DNA from: Bacillota bacterium
GTDB taxonomy: Bacteria; Bacillota; Clostridia; Eubacteriales; Eubacteriaceae
Assembly: GCA_018903255.1 (NCBI GenBank)
Contig: JAHIQT010000189.1
Location: 47,168 to 111,167, forward strand
Direction: 5' to 3'
Length of the DNA: 64,000 bases
Part shown: piece by piece, positions 42,155 to 55,722 of the stretch
Layout: every line of letters starts with the position of its first letter
Position numbering within the stretch: position 1 is the first letter of the stretch
Translations under genes and position numbers: made by a program
Notes under the pieces: model-generated
Told to the model about the DNA's origin: nothing
What the model saw: the letters and a program-made list of their open reading frames with translations, nothing else
Database searches by the model: none

Positions 42155-42971
42155 CCACTTGAACCTCCTTTTTCTGATTCCTGATCGCTTCTTCCAGGGC
42201 GGCAATGCTACGAAAGCCTTTAATCCCCAGACATTCTTCTAGCCGGGTCATCGTTGCCTGTTCCAGACTGGCTGTTTCCAGGGCTTGGGTATTTTTAAAA
42301 ACTTGGGTGGTTTCGCCTTCTGCCAGCACGCCGCCATGATGGAGCACATAGGTGTAATCACAAAATTCATAAATAAAATCCATATCATGGCTGGATAAAA
42401 TAATCTTAATGCCTTTAGCCAGCGCCGCTGTGATAATCGCTTTGACCCCGGCCTTGCTTTTAGGATCGAGTCCCAGTGTCGGTTCATCCATCAGAATGAT
42501 CTCCGGTTCGACGGCTAAAACCCCAGCCATGGCGACCCGTTTCTTTTGCCCATAACTGAGATAATGGACTGGCCGATCGGCCAAAAGCGTGATTCCGGTA
42601 GCTTCCATGGCTGCCTTTACCCGCCCATCGATGAGCTCTGCAGCCATCCCCATGTTTCTTAAGGCAAAGGCCACGTCATCATATATTCCTGAATAAAAGA
42701 CCTGCTTATCGGATTCCTGAATAACCAGCCCAATTGATTTGCGAAATTCGTAGAGATTCTTTTTCTTATAGGATAAGGGTTCTTCCTTAAAAAAAACAGT
42801 TCCCTCAGTTGGTTTGATCAGCCCAATTAAGGCTGACATTAAGGTCGATTTGCCAGCACCGTTTTCACCGATGAGGGCGATGCAATTTCCCCTGTTTCCG
42901 TCAATGGAGACACCTTTTAAAGCGGTAGTGCCGTCCGGATATTGATATGTCAAATTTTTAGTTTTAATCAT
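42129..42971 (-). CDS. cbiO: ECF-type cobalt transporter ATPase
   Basis: IGENGAGKSTLMSAL; LSYGQKKRVAMAGVLA; cbiMNQO context. Confidence 0.94.
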   Translation of the reverse strand: MIKTKNLTYQYPDGTTALKGVSIDGNRGNCIALIGENGAGKSTLMSALIGLIKPTEGTVFFKEEPLSYKKKNLYEFRKSIGLVIQESDKQVFYSGIYDDVAFALRNMGMAAELIDGRVKAAMEATGITLLADRPVHYLSYGQKKRVAMAGVLAVEPEIILMDEPTLGLDPKSKAGVKAIITAALAKGIKIILSSHDMDFIYEFCDYTYVLHHGGVLAEGETTQVFKNTQALETASLEQATMTRLEECLGIKGFRSIAALEEAIRNQKKEVQVDETGSSRN

Positions 42972-43665
42972 TTTTAAGACCTTTCCGATAGCTTACATGA
43001 AAGTCTCCCTGATATTGCTTTAATTCCAGGGTTTTTGTCATCTCCTCGTAGCTCTGGATGGCCATGAGAATTAAATTGCTTAACATCATTGCAATCGATT
43101 GGATTGAGACTTTTACATTGCGGTAACCAAAGCGTAACTCCTGAGCGGTTGCCATAATTTTTATTTTATCCCAATAATCAAAGATAAAGCGGTAGGTTAG
43201 AATAAATATCTCTAAAAAAGTATTGCTGATATGGGCTTTTTTCATCACACCGGCAATCTGCATCACCGGGGTGGTATAAATCAAAAAAAGCATGCAGGAA
43301 ACGCCTGACATCGCTCTACAAAAAACCAGACTGGCCAGCACCAAGTTGGCGGTGGTGATGCCGATGGTAAACTGGAAAAAATTAAATGCCACTAAATAAT
43401 CACCGCCCCCTTTGGAAATGGTGAATAATAATGCCAGCGCTCCGGGGATAATAAAGATCGAATCAAAAATCAGTGTATGGAGATAAATACGTCCGGGAAT
43501 TTTTGCCCACAGCAGGGTGCAAGCCATCATAACACCAAAAACCCCTGCCATATACAGGGGTTCACTGATAAAAAAGACCGAAAGGAGCATGATTAATGAA
43601 ACCACTACCTTAACAGTAGGATTGGCATTGCTAAGTTTATTGGTATGCGCAAAACGATCAATCAT
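42964..43665 (-). CDS. cbiQ: Cobalt ECF transporter T component
   Basis: Polytopic CbiQ family; FLEIFILTYRFIFDYWDKI; SNLILMAIQSYEEM. Confidence 0.9.
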   Translation of the reverse strand: MIDRFAHTNKLSNANPTVKVVVSLIMLLSVFFISEPLYMAGVFGVMMACTLLWAKIPGRIYLHTLIFDSIFIIPGALALLFTISKGGGDYLVAFNFFQFTIGITTANLVLASLVFCRAMSGVSCMLFLIYTTPVMQIAGVMKKAHISNTFLEIFILTYRFIFDYWDKIKIMATAQELRFGYRNVKVSIQSIAMMLSNLILMAIQSYEEMTKTLELKQYQGDFHVSYRKGLKND

Positions 43666-43786: not shown

Positions 43787-44086
43787 TTACGCCGATTTCT
43801 CGGCCTTTTCATTTTTTCCCGATTTTTTATAAAGATAGAAAAAGCAGATTCCCAACCCGCCAACGCCTAGGATCTGTTGGAAAAGGAATAGGTTTTCTTC
43901 CATCTCGCCGGGATCAAACAAGCTTTCAAACCAGGGCACATAATTTTGATCGATTGTGGTGATGGCCGTTCCGGCGGCGTCATCGGCACCCGCAAACTCG
44001 GCCTCTGGCAAGGCAATCTGAGGAATAATAATCAGTGCTCCAATTAGCATAACCAGAATAATTTTAGTTGTCAGCGAGAGTTTCAT
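43787..44086 (-). CDS. cbiN: Cobalt transport protein CbiN
   Basis: Two TM; EFAGADDAAGTAI; VPWFESLFDPGEMEENLFLFQQILG. Confidence 0.88.
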   Translation of the reverse strand: MKLSLTTKIILVMLIGALIIIPQIALPEAEFAGADDAAGTAITTIDQNYVPWFESLFDPGEMEENLFLFQQILGVGGLGICFFYLYKKSGKNEKAEKSA

Positions 44087-44819
44087 TTGAAATAATCCCC
44101 TTTTCTTTATATTGGTAGATGGCATTGACCACCAGTACGGTTAAAATACCTTCGATGATTGCCAGCGGTATCTGGGTAATGGCAAAAATACTTAAAAATT
44201 TAGCAACCGATGCCGTCATCCCACCAACCGGATCCGGGAAGGCCAGACCTAACTGGATCGATGTTGTTATATAGGTCACCAGATCAGCGATACAAGCTGC
44301 TAAAAAAACGGTTAGTGCTTTGGGGACATTGAGCTTTGACAAGCCTTTATAGATTCCGTAAGCAACAAAAGATCCCACTATTGCCATTGAAAAGACATTG
44401 GCTCCCAGCGTAGTCAACCCGCCATGAGCCAGCAAAAGCGCCTGAAATAAAAGCGCGATGGTACCAACCACAACAGTAGCAAAAGGACCCAGGACAATGG
44501 CACCCAAACCGATCCCGGTCATATGCGAGGAACTGCCGGTTACCGAAGGTAATTTAAAAGCTGATAAGGCAAAGGTGAAGGCGGTTGCAATCGCCAATAA
44601 AACTTTTTGCTCAGGCTTGTCTTTAAATATTTTTCCGACCTGATATAATCCGAAAGCGATAAACGGCAGTGATAATACCCACCAGAAGACCGCCCAGCCA
44701 ATCGGCAGAAAGCCTTCCATAATATGCATGGCGTTGACCGGTTGAGCAGCCAAAAGGACCATTAAAAATACAATTCCAACAAATGTCATGTTTCTTTTTG
44801 TGTTTTTTGTTCTTTTCAT
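44064..44819 (-). CDS. cbiM: Cobalt transporter substrate-binding component CbiM
   Basis: NAMHIMEGFLPIGWAVFWW; SSHMTGIGLGAIVLGP. Confidence 0.94.
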   Translation of the reverse strand: MKRTKNTKRNMTFVGIVFLMVLLAAQPVNAMHIMEGFLPIGWAVFWWVLSLPFIAFGLYQVGKIFKDKPEQKVLLAIATAFTFALSAFKLPSVTGSSSHMTGIGLGAIVLGPFATVVVGTIALLFQALLLAHGGLTTLGANVFSMAIVGSFVAYGIYKGLSKLNVPKALTVFLAACIADLVTYITTSIQLGLAFPDPVGGMTASVAKFLSIFAITQIPLAIIEGILTVLVVNAIYQYKEKGIISNETLADN

Positions 44820-44998
44820 TTTTACCTCCATTTTTTATATCAACCAGTAAAAAAGAGGGCTTCACACAGCCCATTTCAATGGACACACTAAAAGCCGATG
44901 GTTTTATGTACTCAAGTCAAAGATAACTGCAAGTATTTCTTTGAACGTTCGGATTTGCTAGCTTGCGTAACGCATTCACTGAATCCACTACTGCCCGA

Positions 44999-45041: not shown

Positions 45042-45140
45042 ATCATTACACGTTTCCATTCATTCTATCACGCAATATCATAGAATCAACTTTTGTTAAT
45101 GTTACTAACTTCCCTTTTCCCTGGAAGGACACTTTAGCAC

Positions 45141-45300
45141 ATCATTTTAGTAGGTTTCCTGACTTATAGCTTTTATTCTCCTCGCCTTCCCAGACAAAAC
45201 GTGCCCAGTGACATATTAAGGAGACATAACTAATTACAGTGACCGGATCGTTCTGGATTCTAACCAGATTCCCTCAATGAATTTATTCATCCTAAATGAT
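45141..45300 (-). promoter_or_regulatory. Cobalamin riboswitch controlling cbiMNQO and downstream genes
   Basis: Minus strand gagggaatctggttagaatccagaacgatccggtcactgtaa...gtcactgggcacg...ctgggaaggcg...aagtcaggaaacctacta; closing stem ATCATTTAGG/CCTACTAAAATGAT. Confidence 0.88.
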
Positions 45301-45511
45301 TTTTTACATCTCTTATTTAATTGTGTTTATATTATAACACGGATATGATAAATGTACAGGTTTTTTTAGGCGCTTTAAGGCTAAAAATTAGCTTCTTTAA
45401 ATAGTAACTGGTTAAGTATTTATTAAATTTGCACGACTTTCTATCGCAATCAAGCTTGTAAAATGCTACAATAGATCAAATGTCTGTAATCCTTTAAACC
45501 GAAGAGGTATT

Positions 45512-53188: not shown

Positions 53189-53902
53189 TTAAATCCGCTC
53201 ACTTTCAATCAGCTGTTTAAGTTGACTTAGAAATGCCGCCATCCAGCGATTATCATCAGCAATATACTCTGGGTGGGACAACACCTCTTCTGGTAACTGA
53301 ACAAAATCATCTGGGATCATTTCATCGCCGCAATTTGCAATCAGATCTTTGATAATCGGCAGGGTGTTTTCGAGATGAAACTGAAATCCAAAAACTCTTT
53401 TTTTGTAGACGAAGGCCTGGTTTTCACAGGCCGCACTTGCAGCAATAACAGTTGCGGCCGCAGGCAGGTTAACAAAGGTATCGCCGTGCCAATGAAAAAC
53501 CATCGGATTCTCTGGGAAAAATCCAAACAGCGGCGATGCTTTGGCTGTTTCAGAAAAGGATATCGGGAACCAGCCGATTTCTTTTTGTTTGTTTTGAACC
53601 ACTTTTGCACCGATGATATCGGCAATTAACTGGCTGCCCAAACAGATGCCAATCACCACCTTGTCTCTTTCTATGGCCGCTTTGATCAATTCTTTTTCGG
53701 CTTTCAGCCAGCGGTATTGATCATCCTGATAAATGTTCATCGGTCCGCCCATCACCACCAGCCAGTCAAATTTATTTACCTCCGGCAAAGCTTCATCCTT
53801 ATACAATTGGGTCGAAGAGACAACACAGCGATTGGCTTTTGCCCATTGCAGAATAGAGCCTGGATTTTCAAAGGGAACATGTTGTAAATAGTGGATTCTC
53901 AT
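53189..53902 (-). CDS. Class I glutamine amidotransferase (GMP synthase-like)
   Basis: VVMGGPMNIYQDDQYRWLKAEKELIK; GICLGSQLIA; FGFQFHLE. Confidence 0.88.
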   Translation of the reverse strand: MRIHYLQHVPFENPGSILQWAKANRCVVSSTQLYKDEALPEVNKFDWLVVMGGPMNIYQDDQYRWLKAEKELIKAAIERDKVVIGICLGSQLIADIIGAKVVQNKQKEIGWFPISFSETAKASPLFGFFPENPMVFHWHGDTFVNLPAAATVIAASAACENQAFVYKKRVFGFQFHLENTLPIIKDLIANCGDEMIPDDFVQLPEEVLSHPEYIADDNRWMAAFLSQLKQLIESERI

Positions 53903-54056: not shown

Positions 54057-54938
54057 ATGAATCAATTAACAGGATTACTGTATGGGGCATTTTTAGGCGA
54101 TGGCTTTGCTTTAGGTTCACATTGGATTTATGATACAAGTCTTATTGCAAATGAATTCGGGGAAATTGCATCGATCGTTGCACCACTACCCTCGACTTAT
54201 CACAAAACAAAGAAAAAAGGCGATTTTACGCATTACGGCGATCAGAGTTTAGTCGTCTTAAAATCAGTCTCAGAAATGGATGGTTTCTATCTGGAAAAAT
54301 TAAAACAGGACTGGCTCGCTTATATGTCTGACTATGATGGTTACCTTGATAAAGCCTCAAAGGAGAGTCTCGAGCTTCTTTCAGTCGAGAATAATCTCGG
54401 TTCACCATCTGATGAGCTTGGCGGTTTTGCTATCCTTGCGCCAATTATTGTTAAGTACCATCAAGATCCGCGTTTAAAGGAATATATTGAAGCGACCATC
54501 CGCCTGACCCATAACAATGATCTGGTCATCGAGATGGCAATTTTTTATACCAATGTTATTTTAAAAATTTTAGCCGGCGCTCGCCCTTATGATGCCATCG
54601 AAGCCTTGGCACCCCGTGCCGGCAAGCTGATTAATCAGTCTTTTCAAGCAGCCGTTAAAAATATCAATGATTCCGCTGTTGAATTTATCACTAAAAATGG
54701 CCAATCCTGCCATGGTAAGCACGCCTTTCCCAGCTCGCTTTTTGTGATCCTCAAAAATCAGGATCATTTCAAAGCAGCGTTGACCGATAACGTTATGGGC
54801 GGTGGCGATTCCGCTGCTAGAGGGATGATCATTGGGATGATTTTGGGTGCCTATCTCGGTTATGACGCCCTTCCCAAAGAGTGGCTCAATGAGCTAAACC
54901 ATCTGCCAGAAATTAACCGTTACGCCGCTTTATTGTAA
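54057..54938 (+). CDS. ADP-ribosylglycohydrolase family protein (divergent)
   Basis: GLLYGAFLGDGFALGSHWIYD; C-terminal GGGDSAARGMIIGMILGA. Confidence 0.75.
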   Translation: MNQLTGLLYGAFLGDGFALGSHWIYDTSLIANEFGEIASIVAPLPSTYHKTKKKGDFTHYGDQSLVVLKSVSEMDGFYLEKLKQDWLAYMSDYDGYLDKASKESLELLSVENNLGSPSDELGGFAILAPIIVKYHQDPRLKEYIEATIRLTHNNDLVIEMAIFYTNVILKILAGARPYDAIEALAPRAGKLINQSFQAAVKNINDSAVEFITKNGQSCHGKHAFPSSLFVILKNQDHFKAALTDNVMGGGDSAARGMIIGMILGAYLGYDALPKEWLNELNHLPEINRYAALL

Positions 54939-54997: not shown

Positions 54998-55037
54998 CAT
55001 GAAAAAAGCGTATCGAATCCAGATACGCTTTTTCATG
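54998..55037. terminator. Bidirectional terminator
   Basis: catgaaaaaagcgtatcgaatccagatacgctttttcatg. Confidence 0.8.
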
Positions 55038-55301
55038 CTCAGATTTTTGGCCAGAAAAATCTGAGTCGAGGAATAATAAACTCTATCAAAAATGTAAATT
55101 AATGAAAGCAAGGTAAATTCGGGGATGTCACACACCATCCCCGAGGAAGGGCATTAAATACTGACTTGGAGATGTCCTGCTATTCGAAGAGATTCTACGA
55201 TTGGTTAGGAGAAATTAACCAACTCCCAAGAATCACACACTTCCTGGGTTCGTAAGCAGTGACCAACGACAAGCTGGCGTGTCATTGGTTATTGCAATAC
55301 G

Positions 55302-55330
55302 AAAAAAATCCTTCTCCAATGGAGAAGGAT
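55302..55330 (-). terminator. Terminator in the expression platform of the second cobalamin riboswitch
   Basis: Minus strand ATCCTTCTCCATTGGAGAAGGATTTTTTT. Confidence 0.85.
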
Positions 55331-55394
55331 AAAAGAATCATACTTACAAATTTAAATATAATGCTCTCACAGTCCTCTAAATCGGAGGTTGTTA

Positions 55395-55550
55395 AGAAAT
55401 CACTACAAACAGGTCTTCTGGCTCAACAATCAACTTTCCATCTCCCTTCCCGCTAATTTCTTAACAGTGGTTATGAGACGGTCATCATGTTTTACAGCTG
55501 CGATTACAGCAAAGGATTTACACCTTTTTCCCTTGAATATAGGACAAGTT
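55395..55550 (-). promoter_or_regulatory. Cobalamin riboswitch (second copy)
   Basis: Minus strand aagggaaaaaggtgtaaatcctttgctgtaatcgcagctgtaa...ataaccactg...gcgggaagggagatgg...gagccagaagacctgt. Confidence 0.87.
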
Positions 55551-55568
55551 CACTATTTAATTAAATTC

Positions 55569-55597
55569 ATTCTACACTAACAAGCTGTGCTTGTCAA
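55569..55597 (-). promoter_or_regulatory. Sigma-A-type promoter of the second cobalamin riboswitch
   Basis: Minus strand TTGACA - 17 nt - TAGAAT (55597-55592 and 55574-55569). Confidence 0.75.
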
Positions 55598-55722
55598 TAG
55601 CCGTTTGTTATAAAAACCGAATTAAAACATGTCATAAATTGAACTGGCACAGCAGTTTTGCGGGCGATTGATAATCGCCCCTTCATGACGTTATTTTATT
55701 AAACTTATATCGTTTGCTTGTT

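Follow-up and report, generated by a model that had tools for sequence, protein, structure and literature searches.

A cobalamin riboswitch in Acetobacterium precedes a conserved structured RNA with predicted pairing to the pduB translation start

Few riboswitches are known to control non-coding RNAs, and the known B12 cases are, to our knowledge, found in pathogens of the Firmicutes. The SAM-riboswitch RNAs SreA and SreB of Listeria are trans-acting and base-pair with an mRNA, and the RNAs Rli55 and EutX carry dual ANTAR hairpins with AnnGnn loops. Rli55 (Listeria) and EutX (Enterococcus) are governed by an AdoCbl riboswitch: transcription terminates with ligand, and the full non-coding RNA made without it sequesters EutV, whereby the B12-dependent eut genes are repressed (PMC6317780). 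In Listeria monocytogenes, a B12 riboswitch terminates the non-coding RNA AspocR at ~230 nt when B12 is present (Mellin et al. 2013, via PMC8079631). In the absence of B12, AspocR is completed and reduces pdu expression; the pdu genes thus run only with their cofactor (PMC8079631, which also mentions SreA-prfA).

We analysed a 64,000-nt stretch of DNA (the window) from a MAG of the genus Acetobacterium. Its minus strand carries, at 55597-55002, a unit consisting of a promoter, a cobalamin aptamer, terminator 1, a structured RNA of ~300 nt and terminator 2, in this order (Table 1); the two terminators are ~265 nt apart. Like AspocR, the unit thus has a B12 riboswitch ahead of a predicted non-coding transcript with terminators. 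The first-pass annotation had described a B12 riboswitch with its own promoter and two terminators but no downstream gene, and most of this layout was borne out. The promoter was placed correctly, the aptamer is recognized by the Rfam Cobalamin model (gathering score 31.5), both terminators are confirmed by the sequence, and the proposed sizes of ~260 nt for the terminated and ~560 nt for the read-through transcript agree with the predicted start. As described, cbiT lies upstream, a gene on the opposite strand (54057-54938) comes next, and there is no minus-strand CDS directly 3' of the unit. One correction is needed: the sequence separating the two terminators is occupied by a folded RNA that is conserved in the genus.

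The genes upstream on the minus strand form a corrinoid operon (btuC, btuD, cbiA, a kinase-like gene, cbiC, cbiL, cbiD, cbiE and cbiT). The convergent gene 54057-54938 encodes an ADP-ribosylglycohydrolase (PF03747), and the nearest minus-strand CDS past the unit, a glutamine amidotransferase gene, starts at 53902 (53902-53189). The unit is single-copy; neither further copies nor a mobile element were found in the window genome. A single promoter match at 11 of 12 positions is, by count alone, within chance. The arrangement TTGACA-17-TAnnnT recurs with identical spacing at 16 Acetobacterium loci in the aligned congeners, however, and the DNA 5' of the promoter, unlike its hexamers, is not conserved among relatives.

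Table 1. Features of the riboswitch-RNA unit in the window
Feature	Position	Strand	Remarks
Promoter TTGACA-17-TAGAAT	55569..55597	-	11/12 matches, best in region
Transcription start (predicted)	near 55562	-	placed from promoter
Cobalamin riboswitch aptamer	55391..55575	-	RF00174, 83.7 bits, E 3.9e-19, full length 1-189
P13/L13 hairpin CCUC-CGAUUUA-GAGG	55373..55388	-	nascent-RNA folding, five species
Terminator 1 (riboswitch expression platform)	55302..55330	-	kept in aligned complete units
Optional 5' hairpins	55225..55289	-	long form only; second with loop GUGUGUGA (55240-55233)
Hairpin A, loop AUUUCUCC	55201..55222	-	96.7% of cells paired
Hairpin B, loop AUCUCCAA, the 25-mer GGACAUCUCCAAGUCAGUAUUUAAU	55153..55177	-	25/25 columns invariant, 11 genomes
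Hairpin C, CGGGGAUG-GUGUGUGA-CAUCCCCG	55120..55143	-	
Target-pairing segment CUUUCAUUAAUUUACAUUUUUG	55087..55108	-	22 contiguous bp (G-U included) with pduB SD/start
Hairpin D, loop CUGGCC	55038..55065	-	99.4% of cells paired; both-side changes at 4/12 pairs
Terminator 2 (end of predicted ~560-nt read-through RNA)	about 55002..55033	-	

The loop L13 (CGAUUUA) is complementary to loop L5 of the aptamer (UGUAAUCG), and the two form a candidate kissing loop. Alternatively, GAGGA in the 3' strand of P13 can pair with UCCUU of terminator 1 as an antiterminator. When the nascent RNA was folded minus the 3' arm of terminator 1, the GAGGA/UCCUU pairing featured in the optimal fold or one close to it for four of the five species, and G015 was less clear. 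The complementary loops and the alternative pairing are both present and conserved. Closure of P13 set against an antiterminator is the usual layout of OFF switches. According to these folds, bound cobalamin should lead to P13 formation and termination, and lack of ligand to read-through.

The region between the terminators (55310-54990) folds at −103.6 kcal/mol compared with −69.3±4.5 kcal/mol for dinucleotide shuffles (z=−7.7). Rfam yielded only sub-threshold matches for this 3' domain (TD-2, 31 bits against 48.7). The optional 5' hairpins are missing from G006, G014-G017 and G009, and in G006 and G014-G017 hairpin A directly adjoins terminator 1; covariation in the optional hairpin was indistinguishable from that in shuffles. 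Hairpins A-C are too invariant for covariation to show, with TTCTCCT of hairpin A being identical across 11 aligned genomes. The stem of terminator 2 was paired in 96% of the sequence cells, with both-side changes at 4/8 pairs (13 sequences). For hairpin D and terminator 2 jointly, 98.0% of the cells were paired and 8/20 pairs had changed on both sides, a level that 0/500 shuffles reached. Both elements show compensatory changes. Dual ANTAR hairpins with AnnGnn hexaloops were sought in 17 sequences of the RNA, and no conserved pair was found.

The invariant block GGACATCTCCAAGTCAGTATTTAAT (55153-55177, minus strand) and the loop UUUCUCC expose two anti-SD motifs, UCUCC. Moreover, the long form has GUGUGUGA as the loop of two distinct hairpins (55240-55233 and 55135-55128, minus strand), which suggests a common binding partner. 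Conservation of the RNA is highest in the two UCUCC loops (hairpins A and B) and in the GUGUGUGA loop, and these features may serve further targets or a protein.

No conserved ORF with an SD was detected between the terminators in the aligned genomes. From an ATG within hairpin C (55138), a frame runs without a stop for eight codons or more in the aligned genomes, and in most of them for over 20 codons, so that the second part could be imagined to encode a small peptide (MVCDIPEF..LLSLIY..) that is produced when B12 is short. However, this ATG is located within a strong stem and is preceded by an SD in no genome, the frame ends after eight codons in G014 and G017, and the C-termini vary in frame and length. 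Conservation tracks the hairpins and not the codon positions. The small ORF was rejected on these grounds, and we regard such a peptide as highly improbable.

When genomes were searched with a covariance model of the RNA core, 18 of 19 from Acetobacterium each gave exactly one copy, and 21 from other genera of the family gave none. A 20-mer taken from the 25-mer block and searched for exact matches across ~85,000 species genomes was found only in Acetobacterium-type records. The RNA is preceded by a cobalamin riboswitch at 16 of the 18 loci, the exceptions being one cut by a contig end and one that is degenerate (G007). Identity over the whole unit is 84-88% in several species. Downstream of cbiT, the relatives carry promoter, aptamer, terminator 1, RNA and terminator 2 together, and beyond the unit a glutamine amidotransferase gene, an ADP-ribosylglycohydrolase gene or unrelated genes. 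In G010 (4.04 Mb, single contig) and in G009 the unit is located away from cbiT with other neighbours; it therefore travels as a whole. Synteny had been proposed as a check for a conserved gene directly 3' of the riboswitch; what the relatives keep there is the RNA with both terminators. The unit of G009 adjoins a second cobalamin riboswitch, which apparently serves a precorrin-6A-reductase-like gene, and has a B12-type ABC transporter on its other side (both named by eye).

These distributions bear on three other explanations of the locus. The degenerate copy in G007 is what a decaying orphan riboswitch, left after loss of its gene, would look like, but the identity of 84-88%, the invariant blocks, the covariation and the presence in 18/19 genomes oppose decay. 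The conservation results already refute it across the genus, and we find it scarcely credible for this locus. The Acetobacterium genome G007 (2.2 Mb) has lost both aptamer and terminator 1, its promoter-proximal sequence is apparently fused to the RNA remnant, and pduB is present.

The amidotransferase gene is next on the minus strand in most relatives, and the unit could be its long tandem leader, with the second structured element as another cis-regulator. We consider this very unlikely. Terminator 2 is kept with compensatory changes, and in the alignment the amidotransferase gene has its own promoter-like −10 past this terminator. Furthermore, a convergent gene follows the RNA in the window and in G010, and the context in G009 is wholly different. 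The convergent gene itself had been suggested as an antisense target by the first-pass annotation, and the convergent orientation in the window and in G010 would permit antisense or read-through control of the ADP-ribosylglycohydrolase. The predicted transcript, however, ends at terminator 2, ~60 nt short of this gene, which is also absent from that position in most relatives. This part of the proposal was not upheld, and we deem such control extremely improbable. Possible action in trans, which had also been raised without naming a target, fared better: a trans target is likely, and the predicted one is the RBS of pduB.

We screened conserved segments of the RNA as antisense sequences in the 19 Acetobacterium genomes. 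The pairing segment was examined after its anti-start codon had been noticed, and the hypothesis stems from the same data. A 15-nt complement with one mismatch, TAAATTAATGAAAGA, was found in 18 of the 19 genomes at the start of one gene, PduB (NF011944, 402.6 bits), and every genome with pduB has TAAATTAATGAAAGA at the pduB start. In the window genome, CUUUCAUUAAUUUACAUUUUUG pairs without interruption with the mRNA sequence CGGAGGUGUAAAUUAAUGAAAG, and this duplex covers the SD together with the first two codons of pduB. A wobble-permissive 22-nt search of the 19 genomes returned the RNA's own locus, the pduB start (18/18) and one stray with one mismatch; a reversed control pattern gave one match in all. 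Predicted duplex energies ranged from −19.0 to −27.7 kcal/mol across species compared with means of −12 to −14 kcal/mol for shuffled mRNAs and, net of opening both partners, from −8.6 to −16.5 kcal/mol. For 49 other start regions in the window the mean was −11.0 kcal/mol and the best value −17.2 kcal/mol.

Between species, the 16-nt core of the RNA differs by five distinct substitutions; each of these affects an A or a C, and the eight U residues are unchanged. Three of the substitutions (A9G, A14G and C15U) retain the pair as G-U, and two, A10C (G006) and A16U (G015), break it; in G006 the pairing extends over the SD instead. Pairing is weaker in G015, in G016 and for one of the two pduB copies of G009. 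Judged by sequence and conservation, the RNA has the properties of a trans-acting sRNA: its own promoter and terminator, no ORF, and a conserved, moderately accessible segment complementary to the start region of an unlinked mRNA.

The evidence from the mRNA side has to be read differently. In other genera, which lack this RNA, the start region of pduB shows almost the same degree of conservation, so its conservation is no evidence of pairing. Since no comparable RNA was found in those genera, the RNA seems, from these comparisons, to have adapted to a site that was already conserved. In other genera, sites complementary to their pduB starts were not near any cobalamin riboswitch. Several genera without the RNA show strong conservation of the spacer that separates the pduB SD from the start codon (UGURRAUUA), as if another constraint or regulator were acting on it. 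Because the Acetobacterium species are closely related, the individual cases are not independent, and by our estimate (of order one) it is not unusual for an RNA of 300 nt to have an exact 16-nt match somewhere in a genome. What is notable about the pduB match is its position at the SD and start codon, its location in a B12-dependent operon and its persistence in all species. G004 is the sole genome without the RNA and also lacks pduB; this double absence is weak evidence because the genome is only 87% complete. The case of G007, which has kept pduB without the riboswitch and with a degenerate RNA, speaks against regulation of pduB.

The diol dehydratase PduCDE depends on B12, and the core Wood-Ljungdahl pathway of acetogens also requires corrinoid. 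In G010, the operon consists of genes for a PocR-domain sensor kinase and an AraC-type response regulator, a BMC shell gene, and pduB, pduC, pduD, pduE and pduG. This layout agrees with the published A. woodii cluster, which comprises Awo_c25930 (kinase), c25920 (regulator), c25910 (pduA) and c25900 (pduB) and whose control has been described as substrate sensing by the response regulator (PMC7593272). Our literature search, mostly outside subscription papers, turned up neither a description of this RNA nor an account of pdu control by B12 in Acetobacterium.

Pairing with pduB does not explain the 25-mer, which is the most invariant stretch of the RNA. The RNA might be a B12-controlled sRNA that acts mainly elsewhere, on many mRNAs through its two UCUCC loops or by sequestering a protein at its GUGUGUGA loops, with a minor or accidental pduB match. 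The strictest conservation is indeed found in hairpins A, B and C, and most long forms contain two copies of the GUGUGUGA loop. Pairing is possible between loop B and the pduB SD (−13.0 kcal/mol) and between loop A and other SDs (about −10 kcal/mol), and the window genome has a strong fit to one cbiN-like start. However, searches for a long antisense partner of the 25-mer (20-mer complement with up to three mismatches, 12-mer exact complement) gave only the RNA itself and scattered matches, and thus no conserved partner in the genomes. The other conserved segment has in pduB a near-sole partner genome-wide, and a functionally apt one. We therefore consider a main action elsewhere unlikely. The CbiN-like gene start, GGAGGTGTAAAATAATG (G000:C64), is located near another cobalamin riboswitch, and its predicted pairing with the same segment amounts to −25.7 kcal/mol.

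Taken together, we favour, with a probability of roughly 0.7, a trans-acting regulatory sRNA under a B12 OFF switch that pairs with the pduB mRNA and lowers pdu expression. From the computed unit, its conservation and structure and its near-unique complementarity, we infer transcription, ligand response, pairing in vivo, repression and the purpose of the system. With cobalamin bound, the L5-L13 kissing loop would keep P13 closed, terminator 1 would form and only the leader of ~260 nt would be made. Under cobalamin shortage, the 5' arm of terminator 1 would instead be captured by the 3' strand of P13, and polymerase would read through to terminator 2, yielding the ~560-nt RNA. The segment 55108-55087 would then pair with the RBS and start codon of pduB on the microcompartment mRNA (pduAB-pduCDE-pduG...). 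This would block PduB translation, lower expression of the B12-dependent diol dehydratase and spare corrinoid. Since a B12-sensing RNA matches the start of the pdu mRNA, the pathway is probably shut off when B12 is short.

The first-pass annotation had proposed an analogue of the B12-controlled non-coding RNAs of Listeria and Enterococcus, and the control of a non-coding RNA by a riboswitch, with similar logic, is supported. AspocR, however, is a 1,400-nt cis-encoded antisense RNA to the regulator gene pocR, whereas the Acetobacterium RNA (~560 nt, predicted) is unlinked to pdu. It ends before 54938 and overlaps no target on the other strand, as the pocR-type genes and pdu are located elsewhere, and its predicted site is the RBS of pduB itself instead of pocR. 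With Rli55 and EutX it shares a cobalamin riboswitch and, by prediction, termination with ligand and a B12-dependent pathway as output, but those RNAs act as decoys for EutV and the Acetobacterium RNA by predicted base pairing. Being neither a cis-antisense RNA nor an ANTAR decoy, it would work like AspocR and Rli55/EutX without belonging to either group. The predicted pairing in trans by a riboswitch-derived RNA recalls SreA and SreB. Unlike SreA, which is the terminated riboswitch and active with ligand, the active part would here be the 3' domain of the read-through RNA, made without ligand.

Hfq (PF17209) was not detected in any of the 19 Acetobacterium genomes, and the same profile was positive in 5 of 14 control genomes. 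Going by these sequence comparisons, and somewhat less firmly than for the sRNA as such, we think it probable that an Hfq-independent trans RNA shuts the microcompartment RBS as a corrinoid-sparing response of acetogens, and that this is, following AspocR and Rli55/EutX, the third time that an RNA which makes the compartment conditional on its cofactor has evolved independently. The comparison suggests that riboswitch-gated RNAs linking B12 to pdu or eut have arisen more than once with different molecules. If true, corrinoid status would be linked to microcompartment formation in Acetobacterium, a genus of model acetogens, and the RNA would have here a specific, testable mRNA partner.

The window contains a second cobalamin riboswitch (45132-45310, minus strand; 83.2 bits) in an ordinary arrangement. 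The ORFs behind it are, by eye, cobalt-transport-like: cbiM (44064-44831), cbiN (43787-44125) and cbiQ (42964-43665).
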